Shown here: piece by piece, positions 6,332 to 61,033 of the stretch
How positions within the stretch are numbered: position 1 is the first letter of the stretch
How the letters are laid out: each line of letters begins with the position of its first letter
Program-made: the position numbers and the translations under genes
Assembly: GCF_002979865.1 (NCBI RefSeq)
Contig: NZ_PCPZ01000001.1
Span: forward strand, 310,001-374,000
Direction: 5' to 3'
Source: Arthrobacter sp. MYb214
Lineage (GTDB): Bacteria > Actinomycetota > Actinomycetes > Actinomycetales > Micrococcaceae
DNA: 64,000 nt
The notes under the pieces: model-generated
Told to the model about the DNA's origin: nothing
The model's input: only the letters and a program-made list of their open reading frames with translations
Database searches by the model: none

Positions 6332-6952
6332 CTAGGCTTCGTTTAGCCATTGAGCGTAATATTTCCTGACTTTCGCGATCTTTGGATCGATAATCACGCG
6401 GCAATAGCCGACTTCCTGGTTTTCGGAGTAATAATCCTGATGGATTTGCTCGGCAGGATAGAAATCTTTGGACTCTTCGAGCGTAGTGACGATCGGATTG
6501 GGGTATACGCGCGAGAACTTCTCGATGGCGTCCTGGAAGAGATCGCGCTGCTGGTCATCGAGCGGGAACATCGCCGAGCGGTACTGCGTGCCCACATCGT
6601 AGCCCTGGCGGTTCAGCGTCGTCGGGTCGTGCACGGTAAAGAACATGTCCAAGATGACTTCGGCCGGAACCACTTGCGGGTCAAAGATCACGGCGACACC
6701 TTCGGCATGGCCAGTGGTGCCGCTGCAGACTTCGCGGTAGGCCGGATCCTTGGTGTGGCCACCGATGTATCCGGAAATCACGGCGTGGACGCCACGGGTT
6801 CGCTGGTACACGGCATCCAAGCACCAGAAGCAACCGCCGGCTAGTACGAAGGTGCTCAACTTGGTGTCCTGGACTTCCAGGAACGGGCTGAATTGATGAG
6901 GGGACTGAAGGCTGGGAATACTCACACAGTTCACAACGTTGCGGCGTTGCAT
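6332..6952 (-). CDS. msrA: Peptide methionine (S)-S-oxide reductase
   Basis: MsrA repairs oxidised methionine in proteins. The catalytic signature GGCFWCLD places the nucleophile Cys at residue 41, and the Cys of FCVQ-type partners is replaced by the usual actinobacterial layout. GYIGGHTKDPAYREVCSGTTGHAEGV and the substrate-region HDPTTLNRQGYDVGTQYRS stretches are typical. I chose ATG 6952 (MQRRNVVNCV), which has GGGGATGGA upstream. GTG at 6934 or 6925 are alternatives, and the conserved domain only begins about 30 residues in. The gene diverges from the NIF3-family gene with about 40 bp between starts, so the two promoters overlap. Confidence 0.9.
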   Translation of the reverse strand: MQRRNVVNCVSIPSLQSPHQFSPFLEVQDTKLSTFVLAGGCFWCLDAVYQRTRGVHAVISGYIGGHTKDPAYREVCSGTTGHAEGVAVIFDPQVVPAEVILDMFFTVHDPTTLNRQGYDVGTQYRSAMFPLDDQQRDLFQDAIEKFSRVYPNPIVTTLEESKDFYPAEQIHQDYYSENQEVGYCRVIIDPKIAKVRKYYAQWLNEA

Positions 6953-6965
6953 TCTGTTCCATCCC

Positions 6966-6994
6966 CATACCCACCGCGTAGGGTGGTGGGTATG
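6966..6994. promoter_or_regulatory. Palindrome with -10 box over the NIF3-family start codon
   Basis: Ten-base perfect arms 6966-6975 and 6985-6994 flank TAGGGT at 6979-6984, a TANNNT -10 box. The ATG begins 7 bases after the box, so the NIF3 mRNA would be leaderless. The palindrome could also bind a regulator acting on both divergent genes. Confidence 0.5.
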
Positions 6995-7972
6995 CAGAGC
7001 AAGGCAGATAACTCGCAAGACCTGGGGAAGAGCAGCGATTCCCTGGATGCCTCGACGCTCAAGCCCGTTACCGGAGAAACGCCTGAGCAACCGGTGGAAG
7101 ACACCTCGGTTCCGCAGACCACCTTGGGTAACGTCCTTGAAGCAGCTGAGGAACTTTGGCCAAAATCATTGGCCGAAGATTGGGATGCCGTTGGCTTGGT
7201 GACCGGACGTACCAGCCAGCAGATTTCCAAGATCGTGATGGCTGTTGATCCAACGCTGGAGGTGATCGAGGATGCAATCGAGCGTGGGGCCGATCTGCTG
7301 ATCACTCACCACCCATTGCTCCTGCGCGGAGTCACCCAGGTTGCCGCCACCAATTTCAAGGGCGAAGCCATTCACCGCCTGATCGAATCCGGAACCGCAT
7401 TGCTTACGGCGCACACCAATGCCGACAGCGCCATCGGGGGAGTCAACGACGCCCTCGCCGATGCCTTCGGGCTGAAGGACTGCGTGCCGTTGATCGAGTC
7501 CAAGGATGGACTGCCAGAGGAAGGCTTGGGGCGGGTGGGCTTCTTGGAGAAGCCGATGAAGCTCGAGGATTTCGCTGAACGCGTTTACACCGTGCTCCCA
7601 GCGGTGGCTGGCGGTGTTCGTGTCGCCGGAGACCGTACAGGCATCATCCGGAAGGTCGCCCTTTGCGGCGGTGCCGGCGATTCCCTGTTTGACGCGGTGC
7701 GCTCGCACCAGGCCGATGTCTACGTGACTGCTGATCTGCGTCACCACCCGGCAAGCGAAGCACGCGAAGCTGCCAACGGCGGGTTCCCTTACCTGATTGA
7801 TGTCTCCCACTTCGCTTCGGAATGGGTCTGGCTGTCGGCTGGTGCCCGCGCCCTGGGCAATGTGCTCAACGATCTTGGCCACACCGTGGAGATCGAGGTT
7901 TCCCAAGTGAATTCCGATCCATGGGATTTCGTGTTATTAGGATCTGCACCTGAAAAACCTACTTTGACCTAG
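6992..7972 (+). CDS. Nif3-like dinuclear metal centre protein
   Basis: A 326-residue member of the NIF3/YbgI (DUF34) family, toroidal hexamers binding two metal ions, reported as possible GTP cyclohydrolase-like or metal-insertion proteins; the true role is unsettled. The first metal motif DLLITHHPLLLRG (two adjacent His), the TAHTNAD segment and the late DVSHFASEW motif supply the ligands. The first 45 residues (SKADNSQDLGK...) are a low-complexity extension not needed for the fold. ATG 6992 is preferred over an upstream in-frame ATG because it sits 7 bases from a -10 box (leaderless) and avoids overlap with msrA. Confidence 0.85.
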   Translation: MQSKADNSQDLGKSSDSLDASTLKPVTGETPEQPVEDTSVPQTTLGNVLEAAEELWPKSLAEDWDAVGLVTGRTSQQISKIVMAVDPTLEVIEDAIERGADLLITHHPLLLRGVTQVAATNFKGEAIHRLIESGTALLTAHTNADSAIGGVNDALADAFGLKDCVPLIESKDGLPEEGLGRVGFLEKPMKLEDFAERVYTVLPAVAGGVRVAGDRTGIIRKVALCGGAGDSLFDAVRSHQADVYVTADLRHHPASEAREAANGGFPYLIDVSHFASEWVWLSAGARALGNVLNDLGHTVEIEVSQVNSDPWDFVLLGSAPEKPTLT

Positions 7973-8041: not shown

Positions 8042-8095
8042 AAAGACCTCACCAGAGTCCAAATAATATTGTGAATTTTGGTTCTGGTGAGGTCT
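8042..8095. terminator. Hairpin between NIF3-family gene and the AT-rich islet
   Basis: Fourteen-base perfect arms AAGACCTCACCAGA (8042-8055) and complement (8082-8095), with a 26-base AT-rich loop and ATTTCAT after the stem. It can end transcripts from both sides and marks the left edge of the AT-richer segment. Confidence 0.6.
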
Positions 8096-8147
8096 TATTT
8101 CATGTTTGCTTCATGGAGGGTCGCGGCCTCGCGAACATACCGCTCAT

Positions 8148-9140
8148 TTAGGATTCCTGATTGCCAGTTACTGTGATCTCGGCTTTGATACGACCTACCC
8201 AATTGGCTCGATGAATCACACGAACAAAATTTGCAGTCGGATCGGACAAAAGATCCGGTCGGCTCCGCTGACTGAGTTCTTTCCAATCATCGAACATCAC
8301 GTAGGCTGCATTCCCATAGCTGAAATTCTCTAATACGACAGCTTTCGGGAAGGTAAATGCAACATACCTTGCAAAGCCGGACGATCCTGAGTAAATCTCA
8401 GTAGGTGATAGGGCTCGCATGGCTTCAAAACGTTCCCTATACGTATCCGGGAGTTGGCGACCCGACTGTTGGGAGAACTTCCTAGCCACAGTATCGAATT
8501 CAGGAAGTTCGGAAGCTTGACCTGCAGGTAGTAATTCCCATGAAACTGACTGAGTGGATTCCCAGTCGGCAACAGTCTGACCCGACGCCAATACCTGAGG
8601 ATATCCAACCGTCTCTCCAACAAGAGAGACAGCCATAAGGAGATCCGAGTCGTTTTCGTCGATGCTAGTTTCGAAAACGAGGTCGCAGAGGAAGGTTACG
8701 ACGGTGGTTTCAGAATCCAAATCCTCGTGCGAAACCGTGATGGGGAATCCCTTACCATGGATGACCTGTTTTCGGTAGGCCATCGTGGATCGCGTGTGGG
8801 TGGAATAACCATACTTTGCGCCGTCGCCAAAGTTTGGCGTAGTTAGTGACCATGAAACTGGGTGTTTGGGTAGGTCTTTGCGAATCTTGACCTGCCCATA
8901 TAGGTTTCGCTTGGCCCAGCGCTTGTTGGGCTCAGGTAAGAATGACTTCTCGTAGTTGAGGTGACCCTCCTGCACCGTGACCCCGGCGTATGCCAGAACC
9001 CCGTCTCTCAGTTCATCCTTACTAAATTTCCGACGGAATCCAATTTGGAATGTAGAGTTGTCGAGCCGTCGAAATTGTTCCACAATGTTTTGAGGAACGG
9101 ACCGAAATCCATGAAGTGCTTTAGCTCTCGGTTCTTTCAC
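8148..9140 (-). CDS. Hypothetical protein, 330 residues, in AT-rich islet
   Basis: I do not recognise this protein. It is 330 residues, soluble, without signal peptide or membrane segments, and with a mixed beta-rich pattern. Readable stretches are the basic N-terminus QIGFRRKFSKDEL, a Trp/Lys-rich region KRWAKRNLYGQVKIRKDL at about 75-92, TVVTFLCDLVFETSIDE in the middle, and a C-terminal strand-rich segment (VRVIHRANWVGRIKAEITVTG). No nuclease, kinase or HTH motif is evident. Base composition is clearly lower in GC than the neighbours. Its ATG at 9140 is 2 bases past the stop of the small YjzC-like gene, so the two are translationally coupled. It looks like a recently acquired accessory pair. 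Confidence 0.7.
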   Translation of the reverse strand: MKEPRAKALHGFRSVPQNIVEQFRRLDNSTFQIGFRRKFSKDELRDGVLAYAGVTVQEGHLNYEKSFLPEPNKRWAKRNLYGQVKIRKDLPKHPVSWSLTTPNFGDGAKYGYSTHTRSTMAYRKQVIHGKGFPITVSHEDLDSETTVVTFLCDLVFETSIDENDSDLLMAVSLVGETVGYPQVLASGQTVADWESTQSVSWELLPAGQASELPEFDTVARKFSQQSGRQLPDTYRERFEAMRALSPTEIYSGSSGFARYVAFTFPKAVVLENFSYGNAAYVMFDDWKELSQRSRPDLLSDPTANFVRVIHRANWVGRIKAEITVTGNQES

Positions 9141-9142
9141 GG

Positions 9143-9334
9143 CTAAGCTCCCCGTCCTGATTTGTTGCGCGTACGATCCACAGGAATGTAAGACTGACCG
9201 GGCTTAGGGGTCGGGGGCAGTTGGGTGCCTTTCGGTACCGTGCGCTCCTGACCGGTGTGTCCTCCACGTGGGCCAATGATCTCCCACTGTGCGGATACAG
9301 TTGCCCGGTTTCCGGGCTTCAACGGCTTTGCCAT
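9143..9334 (-). CDS. Small YjzC-like protein upstream of the 330-residue gene
   Basis: A 63-residue basic protein with features I associate with the YjzC-like family of small proteins: an N-terminal KPGN motif, a Trp/Ile strand, GPRGGHTGQERTVPKG and PPTPKPGQSY, ending in NKSGRGA. Family function is unknown. The ATG at 9334 is preceded by a near-ideal ribosome site (AGGAGG complement at 9344-9349), so it is well translated. It is the first gene of a two-gene unit, with 2 bases between its stop and the next start. Family assignment is from memory of the motif pattern and should be searched. Confidence 0.7.
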   Translation of the reverse strand: MAKPLKPGNRATVSAQWEIIGPRGGHTGQERTVPKGTQLPPTPKPGQSYIPVDRTRNKSGRGA

Positions 9335-9393
9335 TTTGCGAGTCCTCCTAAGGACTGCTTGGAGTTAAGAAGTCACTCCTAGAAAACCTAAGG

Positions 9394-9479
9394 TTCGAAT
9401 ATTCAGTTGCGTTCCATGCCTAGAGTCAACTAGTGTCAGAACGTTCCCGCCAAGGACAATGAATAAGTGAATATTCGAA
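9394..9479. repeat. 12-bp inverted repeat TTCGAATATTCA in islet promoter region
   Basis: TTCGAATATTCA at 9394-9405 and its exact complement at 9468-9479, 62 bases apart. The first arm lies about 60 bases upstream of the YjzC-like start, where a promoter is expected. A paired operator or a recombination site are both possible. Confidence 0.55.
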
Positions 9480-9624
9480 TCTCAGCCTCTCGGTCTAGCC
9501 GTGGGGCTAGATTTTTTGAAGGTGATTTCAGACTCAATACTACATCTAGTGTCTACTCGGTCAAGGTGACACAATATATAGTGGTGAAGTGCTGTGGCAT
9601 CGAAGCTCGACTTTCCACATACCC

Positions 9625-9684
9625 TGTGGATAACCATCCCAGGAATTACCATGAGATTCCGCATAGTTCGAAAGTTTATCCACA
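9625..9684. promoter_or_regulatory. Pair of perfect DnaA boxes
   Basis: TGTGGATAA at 9625-9633 and TTATCCACA at 9676-9684 are both exact 9-mer DnaA boxes, convergent, about 50 bases apart. A weaker relative (CTTTCCACA) sits at 9611-9619. Known DnaA boxes act at origins, in titration sites or in DnaA-regulated promoters; no dnaA, dnaN or rep gene is nearby. Confidence 0.55.
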
Positions 9685-9721
9685 CCTTTAGCAATCTGAT
9701 CTGTAGAAAATGTGCAACAGT

Positions 9722-9737
9722 TGTGATTTATGTCACA
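9722..9737. promoter_or_regulatory. CRP/GlxR-type site upstream of the VOC gene
   Basis: TGTGA-TTTATG-TCACA is a perfect match to the TGTGA-N6-TCACA consensus of CRP-family regulators such as GlxR. It lies 50 bases before the VOC start, with possible -10 TAAGAT about 10 bases downstream. Confidence 0.6.
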
Positions 9738-9786
9738 TCAATATTGTAAGATGCATTCGTGGGACTTCGTGCTGACTCCGTAGTCA

Positions 9787-10194
9787 GTGAGTTCCATGCT
9801 GCATCATCTGGAAATATGGGTTGAGGATTGGGCAGCCAGTACAGCTTCCCTGGGCTGGCTGCTCACTCGCCTTGGCTATGTGGTGGATTCCCAATGGGCT
9901 GATGGCATCAGCTATGCCCGCGATGGATTCTATATAGTCCTGGAATCCGGACCGGATGCCAAAAGGCAGCGGCATGACCGCCTGGCTCCCGGGCTGAACC
10001 ATTTGGCTTTCCATGCTGGAACCAGGCAGGCGGTGGAAACGTTGGCTGCCCAGGCGCTGGATCACGGGTTCACCCTGATGTTCCCGGAGCTGCACCCGTA
10101 CGCCGGGGGACCAAAGCACTACGCGGCGTATTTGGAAGATGCTGCCGGTTTCGAGATTGAGCTAGTAGCGGCCCTGACACAAGCTGAAGTGTGA
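9787..10194 (+). CDS. VOC-family (glyoxalase/bleomycin resistance) protein
   Basis: A 135-residue single-domain vicinal oxygen chelate protein. Candidate metal-site residues are in HHLEIWVEDW near the N-terminus, PGLNHLAFHAG in the middle and AAGFEIELVA near the C-terminus, the His/His/Glu pattern of the family. The substrate cannot be predicted: lyases, isomerases and resistance proteins share this fold. The start could be GTG 9787 or ATG 9796; an in-frame TAG at 9781 limits extension upstream. A perfect CRP/GlxR-type site upstream suggests control by carbon source. The gene stands alone and is followed by a strong terminator. Confidence 0.8.
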   Translation: MSSMLHHLEIWVEDWAASTASLGWLLTRLGYVVDSQWADGISYARDGFYIVLESGPDAKRQRHDRLAPGLNHLAFHAGTRQAVETLAAQALDHGFTLMFPELHPYAGGPKHYAAYLEDAAGFEIELVAALTQAEV

Positions 10195-15213: not shown

Positions 15214-15571
15214 GAATGGGATGGCCAGACGGTCGCGTGGCAAGCAATTGCCCCGAGGAACGTCCGGGCTCCGCAGAACAGGGTGGTGGGTAACGCCCAC
15301 TCGGGGTAACCCGCAGGCTAGTGCCACAGAAAATAGACCGCCAGGTTTTCCTGGTAAGGGTGAAACGGTGGTGTAAGAGACCACCAGCACCCCAAGCGAT
15401 TGGGGTGGCTAGGTAAACCCCACTCGGAGCAAGGTCAGACAGACTGCGTCATGAGGGCTGTTCGCCCCATGCAGTCGGGTGGACCGCTAGAGGCTGCCGG
15501 CAACGGCAGTCGTAGATAGATGACCGTCCCGCTTCGGCGCGACAAAACCCGGCGTATCGGCCATCCCATTC
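15214..15571 (+). ncRNA. rnpB: RNase P RNA (class A)
   Basis: Catalytic RNA of ribonuclease P, which matures tRNA 5' ends. The ends pair to form P1 (GAATGGGATGGCC with GGCCATCCCATTC). The conserved core GAGGAACGTCCGGGCTCC (P3-P4), ACAGAAA near 15325, and the closing AGATAGATGACCGTC block at 15513-15527 are all present and in order. About 358 nucleotides, normal for actinobacteria. Confidence 0.93.
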
Positions 15572-15791
15572 ACACTCTTCCTCCCTGCGATTGCGCCGGC
15601 ATCAGCCTTTAGTGCGCTGGTGAGATGATTCACAGTCCCCGATCCTCAGTTTTTCTGCGCACGGTCTAGAATGGATCATGTACTTACGAGGATGATCCTG
15701 TTACCTCGTGCCACCGCAAAAGCAATGGTGCTTCCCACGGTGCCAACCGACTTTATGGATCTGCGAGTCGGCTGAATTGGAAGGATTTTCT

Positions 15792-21207: not shown

Positions 21208-21284
21208 TGGGGTGAGTAACGGGGTTTGAACCCGCGACCTTCTGGACCACAACCAGACGCTCTACCGACTGAGCTATACCCACC
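21208..21284 (-). tRNA. tRNA-His (GTG), copy 1
   Basis: Full cloverleaf on the minus strand: acceptor GTGGGTA/TACTCAC, D-arm AGCTCAGTCGGTAGAGC, anticodon loop TTGTGGT (anticodon GTG), T-arm GCGGGTTCAAACCCCGT, and the identity-specific extra G-1 opposite discriminator C73. CCA is encoded. Confidence 0.97.
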
Positions 21285-22276: not shown

Positions 22277-22353
22277 TGGGGTGAGTAACGGGGTTTGAAC
22301 CCGCGACCTTCTGGACCACAACCAGACGCTCTACCGACTGAGCTATACCCACC
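22277..22353 (-). tRNA. tRNA-His (GTG), copy 2
   Basis: Identical to copy 1 over the full tRNA including encoded CCA and G-1. The flank on the 5' side (ACTAGTCAGAA and the 22-base promoter block) is also shared, so the repeat unit is about 1069 bp long with the acetyltransferase gene inside. Confidence 0.97.
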
Positions 22354-57437: not shown

Positions 57438-57506
57438 AGGCGGGTTCTCACGGTCGTTGCAACACCTTGATCAAACAGGAGTTGCAACGACCGTCAGAAC
57501 CCGCCT
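57438..57506. repeat. 26-bp inverted repeat hairpin at the island edge
   Basis: Arms 57438-57463 and 57481-57506 match in 25 of 26 bases (single difference at the eleventh base) with a 17-base spacer. Long arms and lack of a T-run argue against a terminator. It resembles the abutted ends of an insertion sequence but no transposase remnant is seen. Confidence 0.6.
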
Positions 57507-57697
57507 TGTACGACTTGGTCCGGCATTTATCACTCCACGCGTGCACGACTAGGAGAAGGGCAGCACTATCGATGGTGTTTCAGGTCGTATCTGTGGCTCC
57601 CATGGTAATGGGGTCAATTTGCCTTGGCGGCGGTATGCCGTCTCAAGCGGGATTCTTATAGACCCAGGCACCGCTAGAACTTACTATGGTAGATAAC

Positions 57698-57711
57698 ATC
57701 TTCCGGAAGAT
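57698..57711. promoter_or_regulatory. Palindromic operator candidate of the ABC operon
   Basis: ATCTTCCGGAAGAT is a perfect 14-bp palindrome, lying 66 bases before the first gene and next to TATGGTAGAT, which holds a possible -10. Confidence 0.5.
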
Positions 57712-57776
57712 ATAACCGACACAGGTGGGTTGAGATATGAGTACATCTCCCCACCTGCCAAATGTGAAAGTGTACC

Positions 57777-58682
57777 TTGCGATCAAAACCCATAATTCTG
57801 GTGCTCGCGTTTGCCGGATTGTTGCTGTTGTTGGATCTAGCGATGCTGTCTTATCGCGCCATACAGGCTGCCACCCTACAGGAGGCAAACTCACTATATA
57901 CGAACAGAGCTATCGAGTTGAGCGGTGATCCATCGACAGCAATCGATTACGCTCGGGGCGATGGGTTGGATGTAACCATCTTCCAACCGCTCGCTGACGA
58001 TGATCATATTCGTGCCGTATTTTCGACAACGGACGTGTCTGGATCTTTACCACTGCACGATATCCGTTGGAATGTATCCGATAGTCGTCCGGGGGCATTA
58101 GTAGGGGCCAACCTCCAAGCTGTGGGCGCCGAGATCGTAATACTGGGAAAAGAATATGAAGTTGCTGGTTTATTAGGGGCACGGGACAAGAGCCTGTTAG
58201 CCGACGAAATCGTTATTTACGATCCACAGTTGTTTGAGGAGCCAGGTGAGCGTCGATTCGTCGTTGACGGACCAGACGCCGATCGGATTACTGAACGTTT
58301 CGAGAATACGCGTGCGATTGAATCAGGTCTCTCCAGGCGAACTAATATTGATTTCATTTCTCCCATCATGAATATGCTTACTGTGGTTTTGCTAATCACT
58401 GGGACAGGTATTTTAGGGTATCTAACGCATACCTGGGGTGCAGCGCGTGATTCGGTAGATCGGTTGTGGGGACGCACCCGCGCATTTTTGTTGTCACGAC
58501 ATATTCTCTCGTACACGACAGTCTGGATCGTGGCGGCAATAGTACCGACGCTAATTCTATTTAGTGCGGGTCGAGCTAGCTTATTGTTTCAAGATTTTCT
58601 CTACTCGCATGTGCTTCTGACATCTATGTTCATTCTCTCTTTCACGACGTCGTTTGTGGTTAGGAACGGAGGAATGAAATGA
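57777..58682 (+). CDS. MacB/FtsX-like ABC permease subunit 1
   Basis: A 301-residue membrane protein with one N-terminal helix (ILVLAFAGLLLLLDLAML), an extracytoplasmic domain of about 165 residues, then three helices at about 200-225, 240-262 and 272-292. This 1+3 layout is that of FtsX/MacB/LolC-type permeases. It has no family signature strong enough to name the cargo. Start TTG 57777 follows GTGAAAG; an in-frame TGA lies just upstream. Codon use (Leu TTA, Ile ATA) and low GC differ from the flanking chromosome. The ATGA overlap with the next gene shows coupling. Confidence 0.75.
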   Translation: MRSKPIILVLAFAGLLLLLDLAMLSYRAIQAATLQEANSLYTNRAIELSGDPSTAIDYARGDGLDVTIFQPLADDDHIRAVFSTTDVSGSLPLHDIRWNVSDSRPGALVGANLQAVGAEIVILGKEYEVAGLLGARDKSLLADEIVIYDPQLFEEPGERRFVVDGPDADRITERFENTRAIESGLSRRTNIDFISPIMNMLTVVLLITGTGILGYLTHTWGAARDSVDRLWGRTRAFLLSRHILSYTTVWIVAAIVPTLILFSAGRASLLFQDFLYSHVLLTSMFILSFTTSFVVRNGGMK

Positions 58683-59950
58683 ACGAGTTCATTTTTGATC
58701 TACGTCGAAACTGGCTTGCTATTGCAACAAAAGCTGTTATCGTAGTGCTGTTTTTAACGGGTTTATACAGCACTATCAGTTTCTCAGCGTCAACGCAGAA
58801 CGCGATTATCAAAAGCTTTAGTGATGGAAACAATCAAGATCTCTACCGTGTGACAGATACTTTTATCGATGCCAATGAGTTCACAGAAGTTCGTCAAAGC
58901 CCAGAAAAACTAGATCAAATTGGAGAGTTTTACGAGAAACTCAATGAGAGCAAGCTCGTGAACTTATTGTCGTCTTTCAATCAACCTATACCGATTGCTG
59001 ATTTTAAAGGCAGTGAGTCTTTCGATGCTTGGGCTGGGGGAGACTATGTTAATGGCGGCGTTTACGTCGATCAGCTGACAGGGCGCGAGACACTGGAGGT
59101 TCGGTCAATGCAGATGAGTAAGGAAGCGTTTGAATTTTCGCATTTGACGGTCGACGAGGGGCAACTTCCTGATTGGGAGAATATTGACTACAGTTCTGGC
59201 CAGATCCCAGTGTTGCTTGGTGCGGACTACAGGGGTATTTACAGTGTCAATGACACACTTGACGGCATGTTCTACATGGAACCGTTCTCACTCAAAGTTG
59301 TTGGATTCCTTGAGCCGCACTCTTCGATGTTCTACCAAGACGATATAGACCACTTCCTTGATGACACCATTGTCATCCCGTATCCAAAAACACTACGTGG
59401 GATAGCGAAGACGAATCTAGATTTTGGTGGGATATTGTCCTTCGCAATGATCAACAGCGATTTTACTGCCTCGAAAGACATGTCCGGTAACGATATCCTC
59501 AAGCATCTTGACCAGATCGGGCGGGAAACTGGATTCACGAACTATGCACTTATAGGTGTGCCTCAATATTTAACTCAATATTCCCTGATGCGAACAATGC
59601 TATTTGATAATGTATGGCTAGTCGCCTTCCTTCAAGTTGCTTTAGGAATAGTTGGCGGACTCGTGTTGTGCGCGCTGAGTGCATTCAATTTCCGTCGTCG
59701 GCGTACTGTCCTCAATTTACGGTGGATAATTGGAACTTCTTGTTTGGAGTTGCAGAAGTGGATGGGGATGATTGTGCTCATCGAATGGGCCGCAATCGGA
59801 CTGTTGTTCCTCACTGTTTATCAAGTTTTACCCAATGAGGGTTCATCAGCCGTCGGCTGGATTATTCTAATTTTTGCCGTTGCTGCTTGTGTTGATATTG
59901 CTGCTGCTACCAGGTCGACCAAACTGTACTTTCAAAGAAAGATTGCATAG
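58679..59950 (+). CDS. MacB/FtsX-like ABC permease subunit 2
   Basis: A 423-residue protein with the same topology: N-terminal helix (about 14-36, VIVVLFLTGLYSTISF), a large acidic extracytoplasmic domain (37-305), and three helices from about 310 (VALGIVGGLVLCALSAF, MGMIVLIEWAAIGLLFLTVY, VGWIILIFAVAACVDIAAA). Its size is larger than subunit 1, so the pair would form an asymmetric transporter. The FtsX-type loop RRRRTVLNLRWIIGTSCLELQKWM lies in the cytosol. Low GC. ATG 58679 overlaps the previous stop by four bases. The export or immunity cargo is unknown. Confidence 0.75.
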   Translation: MNEFIFDLRRNWLAIATKAVIVVLFLTGLYSTISFSASTQNAIIKSFSDGNNQDLYRVTDTFIDANEFTEVRQSPEKLDQIGEFYEKLNESKLVNLLSSFNQPIPIADFKGSESFDAWAGGDYVNGGVYVDQLTGRETLEVRSMQMSKEAFEFSHLTVDEGQLPDWENIDYSSGQIPVLLGADYRGIYSVNDTLDGMFYMEPFSLKVVGFLEPHSSMFYQDDIDHFLDDTIVIPYPKTLRGIAKTNLDFGGILSFAMINSDFTASKDMSGNDILKHLDQIGRETGFTNYALIGVPQYLTQYSLMRTMLFDNVWLVAFLQVALGIVGGLVLCALSAFNFRRRRTVLNLRWIIGTSCLELQKWMGMIVLIEWAAIGLLFLTVYQVLPNEGSSAVGWIILIFAVAACVDIAAATRSTKLYFQRKIA

Positions 59951-59954
59951 AGAC

Positions 59955-60620
59955 ATGACAAGAATCGAACTTCGAGGCCTATCCAAAGGGTTTCGTGAGG
60001 CTAACGGCACACCCCATACACTGTTCCAGAACACGAACTTTGAAGCAGATGAGAACGATGCTTCAATTGCCGTCCTCGGACGCAGTGGTTCGGGAAAAAG
60101 TACCTTACTTAAAATTTTGGCCGGTCTTGATACTCATTATATGGGGGAATTTCGCTTTAACGAAGAAATTCTCCAGCATAAGGAATCGAGGATGGCGGCC
60201 TTTCGCAAGGCGAATGTCGGCGTAATTACGCAACGCTATGATCTGCTACCTGAGCGGACCGCCTTACAAAATGTCATGTTGGGACTAGGCGGGAATAAGA
60301 ACGCCTTCCGCGACCCGGCAGCAGACGCACTCGGTCATGTAGGTCTTAGTAAGTACGAAAATCATAGAGTCGGCAGACTCTCAGGTGGCGAAGCTCAGCG
60401 TGTGGCGATTGCCCGCGCAATCGTTAAATCTCCAGCAATTCTAATTGCGGATGAGCCAACCGGGGCGCTCGACGAGCAGACGGAAAATGAAGTGTTGGAT
60501 CTATTCGACATTCTTCGCGCTCGTGGAAGTTTGCTCGTTATTGCAACCCATAGTGAACGAGTAGCTCAACGTTGCGCCAGGCAGGTAGTTATCACAGGTA
60601 AGAAAGTAGTTGAAGTCTAG
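59955..60620 (+). CDS. LolD/MacB-type ABC ATPase of the acquired operon
   Basis: A 221-residue ATPase. Walker A is LGRSGSGKST, Q-loop GVITQRYDLLPERT, signature LSGGEAQRVAIARAI, Walker B ILIADEPTGALDE and H-loop IATHSERVA. The DEPTGALD and the short length are typical of MacB, LolD and Bce-type ATPases. ATG 59955 is 5 bases after the stop of the permease gene; the upstream frame overlaps it. The three-gene set resembles systems for export or immunity against lipids or peptides, but no bacteriocin or peptide gene was recognised in the island. Confidence 0.85.
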   Translation: MTRIELRGLSKGFREANGTPHTLFQNTNFEADENDASIAVLGRSGSGKSTLLKILAGLDTHYMGEFRFNEEILQHKESRMAAFRKANVGVITQRYDLLPERTALQNVMLGLGGNKNAFRDPAADALGHVGLSKYENHRVGRLSGGEAQRVAIARAIVKSPAILIADEPTGALDEQTENEVLDLFDILRARGSLLVIATHSERVAQRCARQVVITGKKVVEV

Positions 60621-61033
60621 TGTCGATTCTAATCGATAATCCTAGGCTAAAGAACTATTCTGATTAATAAATTCCTAAAACATCACGGCATTATTCCGAT
60701 GCATAACACTAGATTGGTTTATTTGAGATTTCCGTATCTGATTTCTCGCGGTCGAGTCTCTTCTCTGGGCTTATTTTTTGTCAGAGAATTTATCTTCTTG
60801 CATCGAAACAAATGCTTTCAGTTCATATTGTGTTATTTTCAAGCTAATTGACGGCTGGAATATTCATATATAACCAGAAATGCAACACTTATGTATCAAT
60901 CTGAATGCTGCAACGGTGGCGAATGCCTTGCAGGACTTGTCGCTTTGATGATCGCTGGAGCCCTATAGGCACCCCACGGCCCTCGCACAGCCCTACGAAG
61001 ACCAGGTATGTTGGTTAGCCCTTCGCATTGGAC
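60621..61033. other. 413-bp AT-rich non-coding end of the island
   Basis: No gene, RNA or insertion sequence was recognised. The AT-rich text ends at about 60930, where GC rises again, marking the right edge of the acquired segment. A weak hairpin TCGAT-TCTA-ATCGA lies at 60622-60635. Confidence 0.55.

Follow-up and report, generated by a model that had tools for sequence, protein, structure and literature searches.

A 1.84-kb islet inserted into the 3' end of a NIF3 gene in Arthrobacter sp. MYb214, carrying a protein with a predicted ZorC-like C-terminal domain

The window analyzed in this report is a 64-kb (64,000-nucleotide) stretch of DNA from Arthrobacter sp. MYb214, and in it an islet of 1838 bp (1.84 kb, from the core repeat at 7922 to the core repeat at 9760) lies between two conserved genes, one of the NIF3 family and one of the VOC/glyoxalase family. 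It was inserted site-specifically into the NIF3 gene, at its 3' end. It holds a gene for a small, basic, YjzC-like protein and a gene for a 330-residue protein whose C-terminal part, judged by profile comparison and a shared motif and more weakly by predicted fold, is a ZorC-like EH domain. The reading we favor, with somewhat better than even confidence, is that of an integrase-less cassette at the NIF3 site whose cargo is accessory and probably acts against phages or plasmids, the defensive role and its mechanism being the parts that we infer. The initial annotation of this DNA had described two adjacent genes 2 bp apart and a strong ribosome site before the small one; both descriptions hold, with an ATG start for the 63-residue ORF and a GTG start for the 330-residue ORF. 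The coordinates of all features are given in Table 1.

Table 1. Features of the islet and of the genes that flank it (positions in the window)
Feature	Position	Strand	Remarks
NIF3-family gene	6893..7972	+	host gene and insertion target; PF01784, E 3.8e-72; new tail ...VLLGSAPEKPTLT (then stop) from the inserted element
Left junction and left end of element	7914..7968	+	76% identity with the G111 element over 55 bp
Left core repeat TGGGATTTCGTGTT, attL-like	7922..7935	+	12/14 bases identical to 9760-9773, spacing 1838
Hairpin	8043..8096		22-nt arms, 86% complementary; between the convergent NIF3 and EH genes
330-aa stand-alone EH-signature protein (predicted), cargo	8148..9140	-	GTG start; predicted C-terminal EH domain ~199-330; E271, H310
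63-aa YjzC-like basic protein	9143..9334	-	11 K/R, 3 D/E; phrog_3202; gene common to the G111 element
AGGAGG ribosome site of small gene	9344..9349	-	9 nt before ATG
Inverted repeat	9388..9485		arms 9388-9408 and 9465-9485 (21 nt), 86% complementary, 56 nt apart
TTATCCACA	9625..9633	-	DnaA-box consensus
Right end of element	9657..9782	+	82% identity with the G111 element over 126 bp
TTATCCACA	9676..9684	+	retained in G111
Right core repeat and displaced ancestral NIF3 3' end	9760..9783	+	TGG GAC TTC GTG CTG ACT CCG TAG = WDFVLTP (then stop)
VOC/glyoxalase-family gene	9796..10194	+	PF13669, E 9e-8; adjoins NIF3 in relatives

Insertion of the islet at the 3' end of NIF3

The VOC gene was present in all 18 genomes of the host's genus that were searched, and 16 of these could be assessed for the islet; the two left out were the window's own genome and G230, in which the match was a fragment and NIF3 lay outside the stretch. 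The islet is absent from all 16 relatives. Their NIF3 and VOC genes are ≤21 bp apart or overlap in the alignment in 12 cases, are 64 bp apart in one, and are separated by 382 to 593 bp of unrelated DNA in three (L091, L093, and L096). The NIF3-VOC junction may be an insertion hotspot. The junction DNA of the last three relatives holds a short ORF resembling a zinc-finger protein.

All 16 relatives have a NIF3 protein that ends in WDFVLTP or WDFILTP before the stop (14 recognized by pattern, L089 and L093 by eye). The NIF3 protein of the window ends in VLLGSAPEKPTLT, and the ancestral ending WDFVLTP is displaced 1838 bp onward, to a position just before the start of the VOC gene. The displaced 24-mer (9760 to 9783) occurs once in the window, as an exact match, with 0 occurrences expected in shuffles. 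Its first 14 bases form the right core, TGGGACTTCGTGCT, which agrees with the left core at 12 of 14 positions. The start of the VOC gene was moved from a GTG at 9787 to an ATG at 9796. NIF3 is convergent with the gene pair on the left side of the islet, and the VOC gene is divergent from it on the right. Both flanking genes are conserved, as the initial annotation had stated.

A second insertion was found at the same place in NIF3 in G111, a genome from another genus of the same family (region L127). This insertion is 1188 bp long, as measured from core to core, and the two cores, TGGGACTTCATTCT, match at all 14 bases. Its left end is similar to that of the window element and includes the same replacement NIF3 tail, GSxxEKPxLT; its right end is directly adjoined by a gene for a small protein that is 92% identical to the one in the window. 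The cargo behind that gene in place of the EH protein is a 177-residue protein with a likely membrane segment, by reading of its sequence, and no copy of it was found on plasmids. Thus, what these two genomes share is the ends and the small gene; the second gene is exchanged. The empty sites in the relatives, the att-like repeats, the displaced NIF3 end, and the presence in G111 of an element with the same ends at this very site show that the islet entered the 3' end of NIF3 by site-specific recombination.

SCC elements and SaPI are genomic islands located at the 3' ends of conserved genes. Like them, the islet is inserted into a conserved gene at its 3' terminus, is bounded by direct repeats, supplies a new gene tail, and displaces the old one; unlike them, it has no recombinase, spans only 1.2 to 1.8 kb in its two examples, and targets NIF3. 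No recombinase or integrase ORF was found in either the 1.84-kb islet of the window or the islet of G111. The right-end sequence is present in a single copy in its own genome, and no copy of it was found on the plasmids or in the viral contigs searched, so that present-day mobility of the cassette is hypothetical. The right end contains the sequence TTATCCACA, the DnaA-box consensus; it occurs twice in the 64-kb window, both times in the islet and in opposite orientations, compared to 0.16 expected, and two occurrences were reached in 2 of 100 shuffles.

The small protein was recovered in 10 of the 395 genomes of the host's family that were searched, and a DNA search with positions 9335 to 9771 gave matches in eight family genomes at E ≤ 0.001, most of them short. 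In one further genome, G156, the small gene is 75% identical, and there is a partial match (71%) to the central part of the right segment. The YjzC-like gene of G156 (L128, 5740-10952) lies in a low-GC island that also encodes a membrane-type protein of 179 residues with an ending like that of the G111 cargo; ~1.5 kb away is a resolvase-like ORF, recognized by reading of the translation. This island is possibly a recombinase-bearing relative of the cassette.

The proposal that the two genes form a foreign, accessory module is strongly supported by the empty site in the assessable relatives, the displaced NIF3 tail, the att-like repeats, and the finding of the EH protein in just four of the 395 family genomes, one of them its own. 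Other parts of the initial annotation fared less well. The segment of 450 bp that it took for regulatory is largely the right end of the inserted element, including the displaced NIF3 3' end. Of the two genes said to be low in GC, the large one is (49.6%, a value equaled or undercut by 4.8% of 993-bp window segments, compared to a window mean of 61.2%), and the small one, at 59.9%, is not; the EH gene of the family member G060 is likewise below its host (60% versus 72%). Nor is the islet unique in its AT content, since positions 57.5 to 61 kb of the window are lower still. That second, deeper AT-rich islet (57500-61000, 44 to 50% GC) contains two ORFs (57777-58682 and 58679-59950) with no Pfam or PADLOC match and a third (59874-60620) that encodes an ABC-type ATPase (PF00005, E 4.8e-29). 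The hairpin that had been placed at 8042-8095 is present one base further on, between convergent genes, and is probably a bidirectional terminator. At 9494-9516 (+), the sequence TCTAGCC-GTGG-GGCTAGA followed by T's resembles a terminator hairpin by eye and is absent from the scan output. Elsewhere in the window are the RNase P RNA (class A, 15217-15572) and two equally scoring tRNA genes (21211-21283 and 22280-22352).

A stand-alone protein with a predicted ZorC-like domain

As had been noted initially, the 330-residue protein is not placed in any family by its own sequence: used as a query it had no match in Pfam, NCBIfam, PADLOC, or PHROGs, and single-sequence scans with it returned nothing in genome or viral contigs. 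An alignment of seven members, used as the query, recovered both genome loci and viral contigs. The scan of species genomes gave at least 36 loci, an undercount because it used one peptide pattern, and four viral contigs were found; tblastn added 17 plasmid records and one phage record. The 36 loci are distributed over the Actinomycetota, Pseudomonadota, Bacteroidota, Acidobacteriota, Thermomicrobiota, and CPR groups. Residues invariant in all 36 aligned sequences include W201, R237, G252, Y259, E271, Y275, G276, N277, A278, Y280, W286, R294, R307, H310, and W314, among others. The set used below comprises 55 loci, the window included, with the fragments L050 and L051 outside it; the tree omits L012, L044, L048, and L049, which are fragments or carry frameshifts. 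No paper dedicated to this stand-alone EH-domain family was found among literature titles.

The likeness to ZorC, a component of type I Zorya, came to light through the relatives. The PADLOC ZorC1 model was matched by three of 16 relatives (L007, L009, and L015, which represent both subfamilies) with E values of 6e-4 to 2.5e-3, always on the C-terminal segment; the window protein itself was unmatched. For profile comparison, a set of ZorC sequences was fetched with the PADLOC model, which was found in 13 of 299 genomes, and seven sequences were aligned; EH_Signature was present in the two that were tested, and the set is related to the solved ZorC structure 8r68 (E 3.9e-62). Comparison of the EH family with these seven by hhalign gave an E value of 1.7e-5 for an alignment of 16 members, 6.8e-5 for one of 36, and 1.5e-5 for the C-domain, with probabilities of 63 to 79%. 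The E, GNA, H, and W of the EH protein are aligned with those of ZorC, giving a C-terminal block in the same order with the shared motif E...GNA.Y...H...W, in which E271 and H310 correspond to ZorC E400 and H443, positions that were obtained by counting along the alignment with 8r68. In the Zorya structure work of Hu et al., ZorC mutants at E400 and H443 reportedly lose defense.

The 330-residue protein is nonetheless, on this evidence, a stand-alone EH-domain protein and not ZorC, because EH_Signature (PF15611) was matched by 0 of 16 members, only ~60 C-terminal columns align, and the N-terminal half is different, the long N-terminal region of ZorC being absent. The two also differ in length (330 compared to ~560 residues), and no ZorA or ZorB was seen adjacent, either among the annotated neighbors or in the best 25 families of the PADLOC neighbor scan. 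No PF15611 match was found in the window's own genome at E ≤ 10. A search for ZorC in 197 family genomes gave no match, but the controls were also unmatched, and hence this result carries little weight.

Structure prediction gave a full-length model with a mean pLDDT of 86 and a pTM of 0.63, for which no PDB or viral structure matched at E ≤ 1e-3 and the best VIA match had Z 4.6. A START/Bet v1-like fold for residues 27-187 was considered, but with Z of only ~2-3 it was not relied on. The C-domain modeled alone had a pLDDT of 86 and a pTM of 0.83. Foldseek placed ZorC (8r68) at rank 12 among the matches to this model, a non-significant result, and VIA aligned 115 residues of it with residues 306-470 of 8r68 (Z 4.2, rmsd 4.6). 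The top structural match was the C-terminal domain of the Tn7 protein TnsE (5d17; Z 6.3, rmsd 3.2, 101 aligned), and a domain of T4 MotA was also recovered (Z 5.1, rmsd 3.2, 78 aligned); all three of these Z values are within the range that the tool calls common. The TnsE C-terminal domain also has a conserved E and, near its C terminus, a mostly kept H. However, TnsE serves transposition targeting and not defense, it has no detectable sequence similarity to the EH protein, and an outgroup of six TnsE sequences gave profile values of 0.12 to 0.43 against either the EH protein or ZorC. The profile test does not support homology of the C-domain with TnsE, and the models give only a hint of a common fold.

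Neighbors of the EH and YjzC-like genes

Upstream of the EH gene on the same strand there is no single partner. Across the 55 loci, this gene is YjzC-like in three (the window, G060, and a Dyadobacter plasmid), encodes KTSC in two, a 54-residue small protein in three (one of them also KTSC), and DUF2188 in one. At six loci it encodes a protein of 227 to 241 residues, separated from the EH gene by 4 to 15 bp and containing the invariant motif RNxLxHRxAPGR. One of four such proteins scanned reached the Pfam family HEPN_Cthe2314 with E 0.013, below the cut-off, and we tentatively regard these proteins as HEPN-like. The tight units of HEPN-like and EH genes (L023, L029, L030, L032, L033, and L036) occur in Pseudomonadota and CPR bacteria, with Alphaproteobacteria among the hosts. 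The tree unites the six EH proteins linked to them with L025 in one starred clade of seven, with members from the Pseudomonadota and CPR; placements elsewhere in it are uncertain owing to several long branches.

Some other neighbors are of defense type. Gabija genes lie beside EH genes at L008 and L011, GIY-YIG at L035 (E 8e-5) and, by similarity, at L038, and PDC-M36A-like candidates at L004 and L045 (E 2e-21 and 1e-17). On a Lactococcus plasmid (L014:2746-8384), a gene for a type ISP restriction enzyme is followed after 17 bp by an EH gene, and nearly identical EH genes are present on plasmids of another Lactococcus and of Latilactobacillus. Genes labeled as terminase by reading adjoin the EH gene in three of the four viral contigs. 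A small protein of the form MAKNTG...RSQ...KPFKGV precedes the EH protein at L022:7755-7919, L034:411-710, and L011:5073-5249, in Hymenobacteraceae and Deinococcus; the one that was scanned had no family above the cut-off. At many EH loci a recognizable defense neighbor is absent, and the PADLOC scan, which covered 142 of 158 neighbor proteins and was read for its best 25 families with no control set, is not taken to indicate enrichment. The initial suggestion of a phage-defense-like role thus draws indirect support from the ZorC-like C-terminal domain and, in some relatives, from Gabija, R-M, GIY-YIG, PDC-M36A, or HEPN-like neighbors.

The small protein belongs to phrog_3202 (E 2.3e-11 over residues 1-58), which bears out one side of its YjzC-like label; on the other side, it had no match to Pfam YjzC (PF14168), and small proteins from related loci stay below the cut-off of 25 for that family (L002, 6e-4 and 20.5 bits; L072, 0.13). 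It is linked to a changing second gene. The small gene was found on 36 plasmid records, and identity reaches 68% in plasmids of 4 to 9 kb from E. coli and Klebsiella; only the Dyadobacter record among 10 that were opened has an EH gene beside it. Its other neighbors in these 10 are an HTH gene together with ImmA/IrrE (in E. coli and both Klebsiella), GNAT with DUF1778, DUF1883, and others. Eight of the 10 family genomes that carry the small gene have it without EH. Where the two genes are adjacent outside the window, they overlap by 4 bp (G060) or are separated by 57 bp (the Dyadobacter plasmid). The YjzC-like protein is probably not a dedicated antitoxin of EH, because among the opened plasmid records its gene adjoins EH only in Dyadobacter.

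Possible function and alternative explanations

According to the proposed explanation, the cassette entered the NIF3 3' end by site-specific recombination and, having no recombinase, would either be moved in trans or be what is left, now fixed, of a larger element. Both insertions have the YjzC-like gene beside the right end, and the gene behind it differs between the two. The EH protein would act against incoming DNA, its EH domain binding or processing nucleic acid by means of the conserved E271/H310 pair and its N-terminal domain, or a partner protein, giving recognition; the YjzC-like protein would be an accessory or regulator. A reusable sensing or DNA-handling part of this kind would fit the finding of EH genes beside partners as different as HEPN-like and PDC-M36A-like proteins, restriction enzymes, and Gabija.

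The islet could instead be a relic: an ordinary genomic island would have lost its integrase and become fixed, and its genes would have no conflict-related role. A 1.84-kb element with no integrase, cores that differ at 2 of 14 bases, and a single copy in the genome are all consistent with this, but both ORFs are intact, residues of catalytic type are conserved across phyla, and the same small integrase-free layout recurs with different cargo in another genus; we consider such a relic rather unlikely. An explanation that seems to us unlikely is a selfish function of phages or plasmids, i.e., anti-defense, superinfection exclusion, or DNA packaging or maintenance, in place of host defense. The terminase genes beside EH in the viral contigs, the many EH copies on plasmids, and the phage family of the small gene would agree with it. 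Cargo genes are, however, also commonly placed next to terminase, no phage gene is present in the chromosomal cassette, and other EH copies adjoin Gabija and R-M genes.

The pair as a toxin-antitoxin module, with the 63-residue basic protein as antitoxin and the 330-residue protein as toxin, was one of the initial suggestions, and the small gene in first position, the 2-bp gap, and the strong AGGAGG, an arrangement that would favor antitoxin excess, are as expected for it, as is the adjacency of the two genes in G060 and on the Dyadobacter plasmid. An obligate two-component pair is not supported by the loci at large: the genes are paired in only 3 of 55 EH loci, EH is present in 2 of the 10 family genomes that have the small gene, the G111 element retains the small gene with other cargo, and 9 of 10 opened plasmid records lack EH beside it. 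We therefore regard a toxin-antitoxin system as very unlikely. We hold it to be highly improbable that the C-terminal domain is a DNA-binding domain of the TnsE/MotA type with no relation to ZorC; the TnsE and MotA structural matches point that way, but their Z values are of the common range, the TnsE profile values contrast with 1.5e-5 for ZorC, and the matches would be compatible with the ZorC view if ZorC and TnsE have a fold in common. The initial annotation had named a widespread syntenic core gene, a known enzyme fold, and a pair that never occurs together as findings against an accessory module, and none of the three was seen.

Beyond the favored reading of an integrase-less NIF3-site cassette with accessory and probably defensive cargo, a broader one is possible, if doubtful: that there is a class of minimal integrase-less mobile cassettes with the NIF3 3' end as their only address, a fixed YjzC-like gene, a right end bearing DnaA boxes, and one swapped cargo gene, which here encodes a stand-alone ZorC-type EH protein that would be reused in many unrecognized defense modules, the tight HEPN-like and EH unit of Alphaproteobacteria and CPR bacteria being one example.

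With these results, a family of proteins that is widely scattered but has no name can be set beside ZorC, and two candidate residues, E271 and H310, are offered for testing. A further prediction is that the ends of this very small, cargo-swapping cassette can recombine; if they do, the contents of NIF3 3' ends elsewhere would list more cargo genes. Should the EH domain prove to handle nucleic acids in defense modules generally, the poorly understood role of ZorC would become testable in one small protein.
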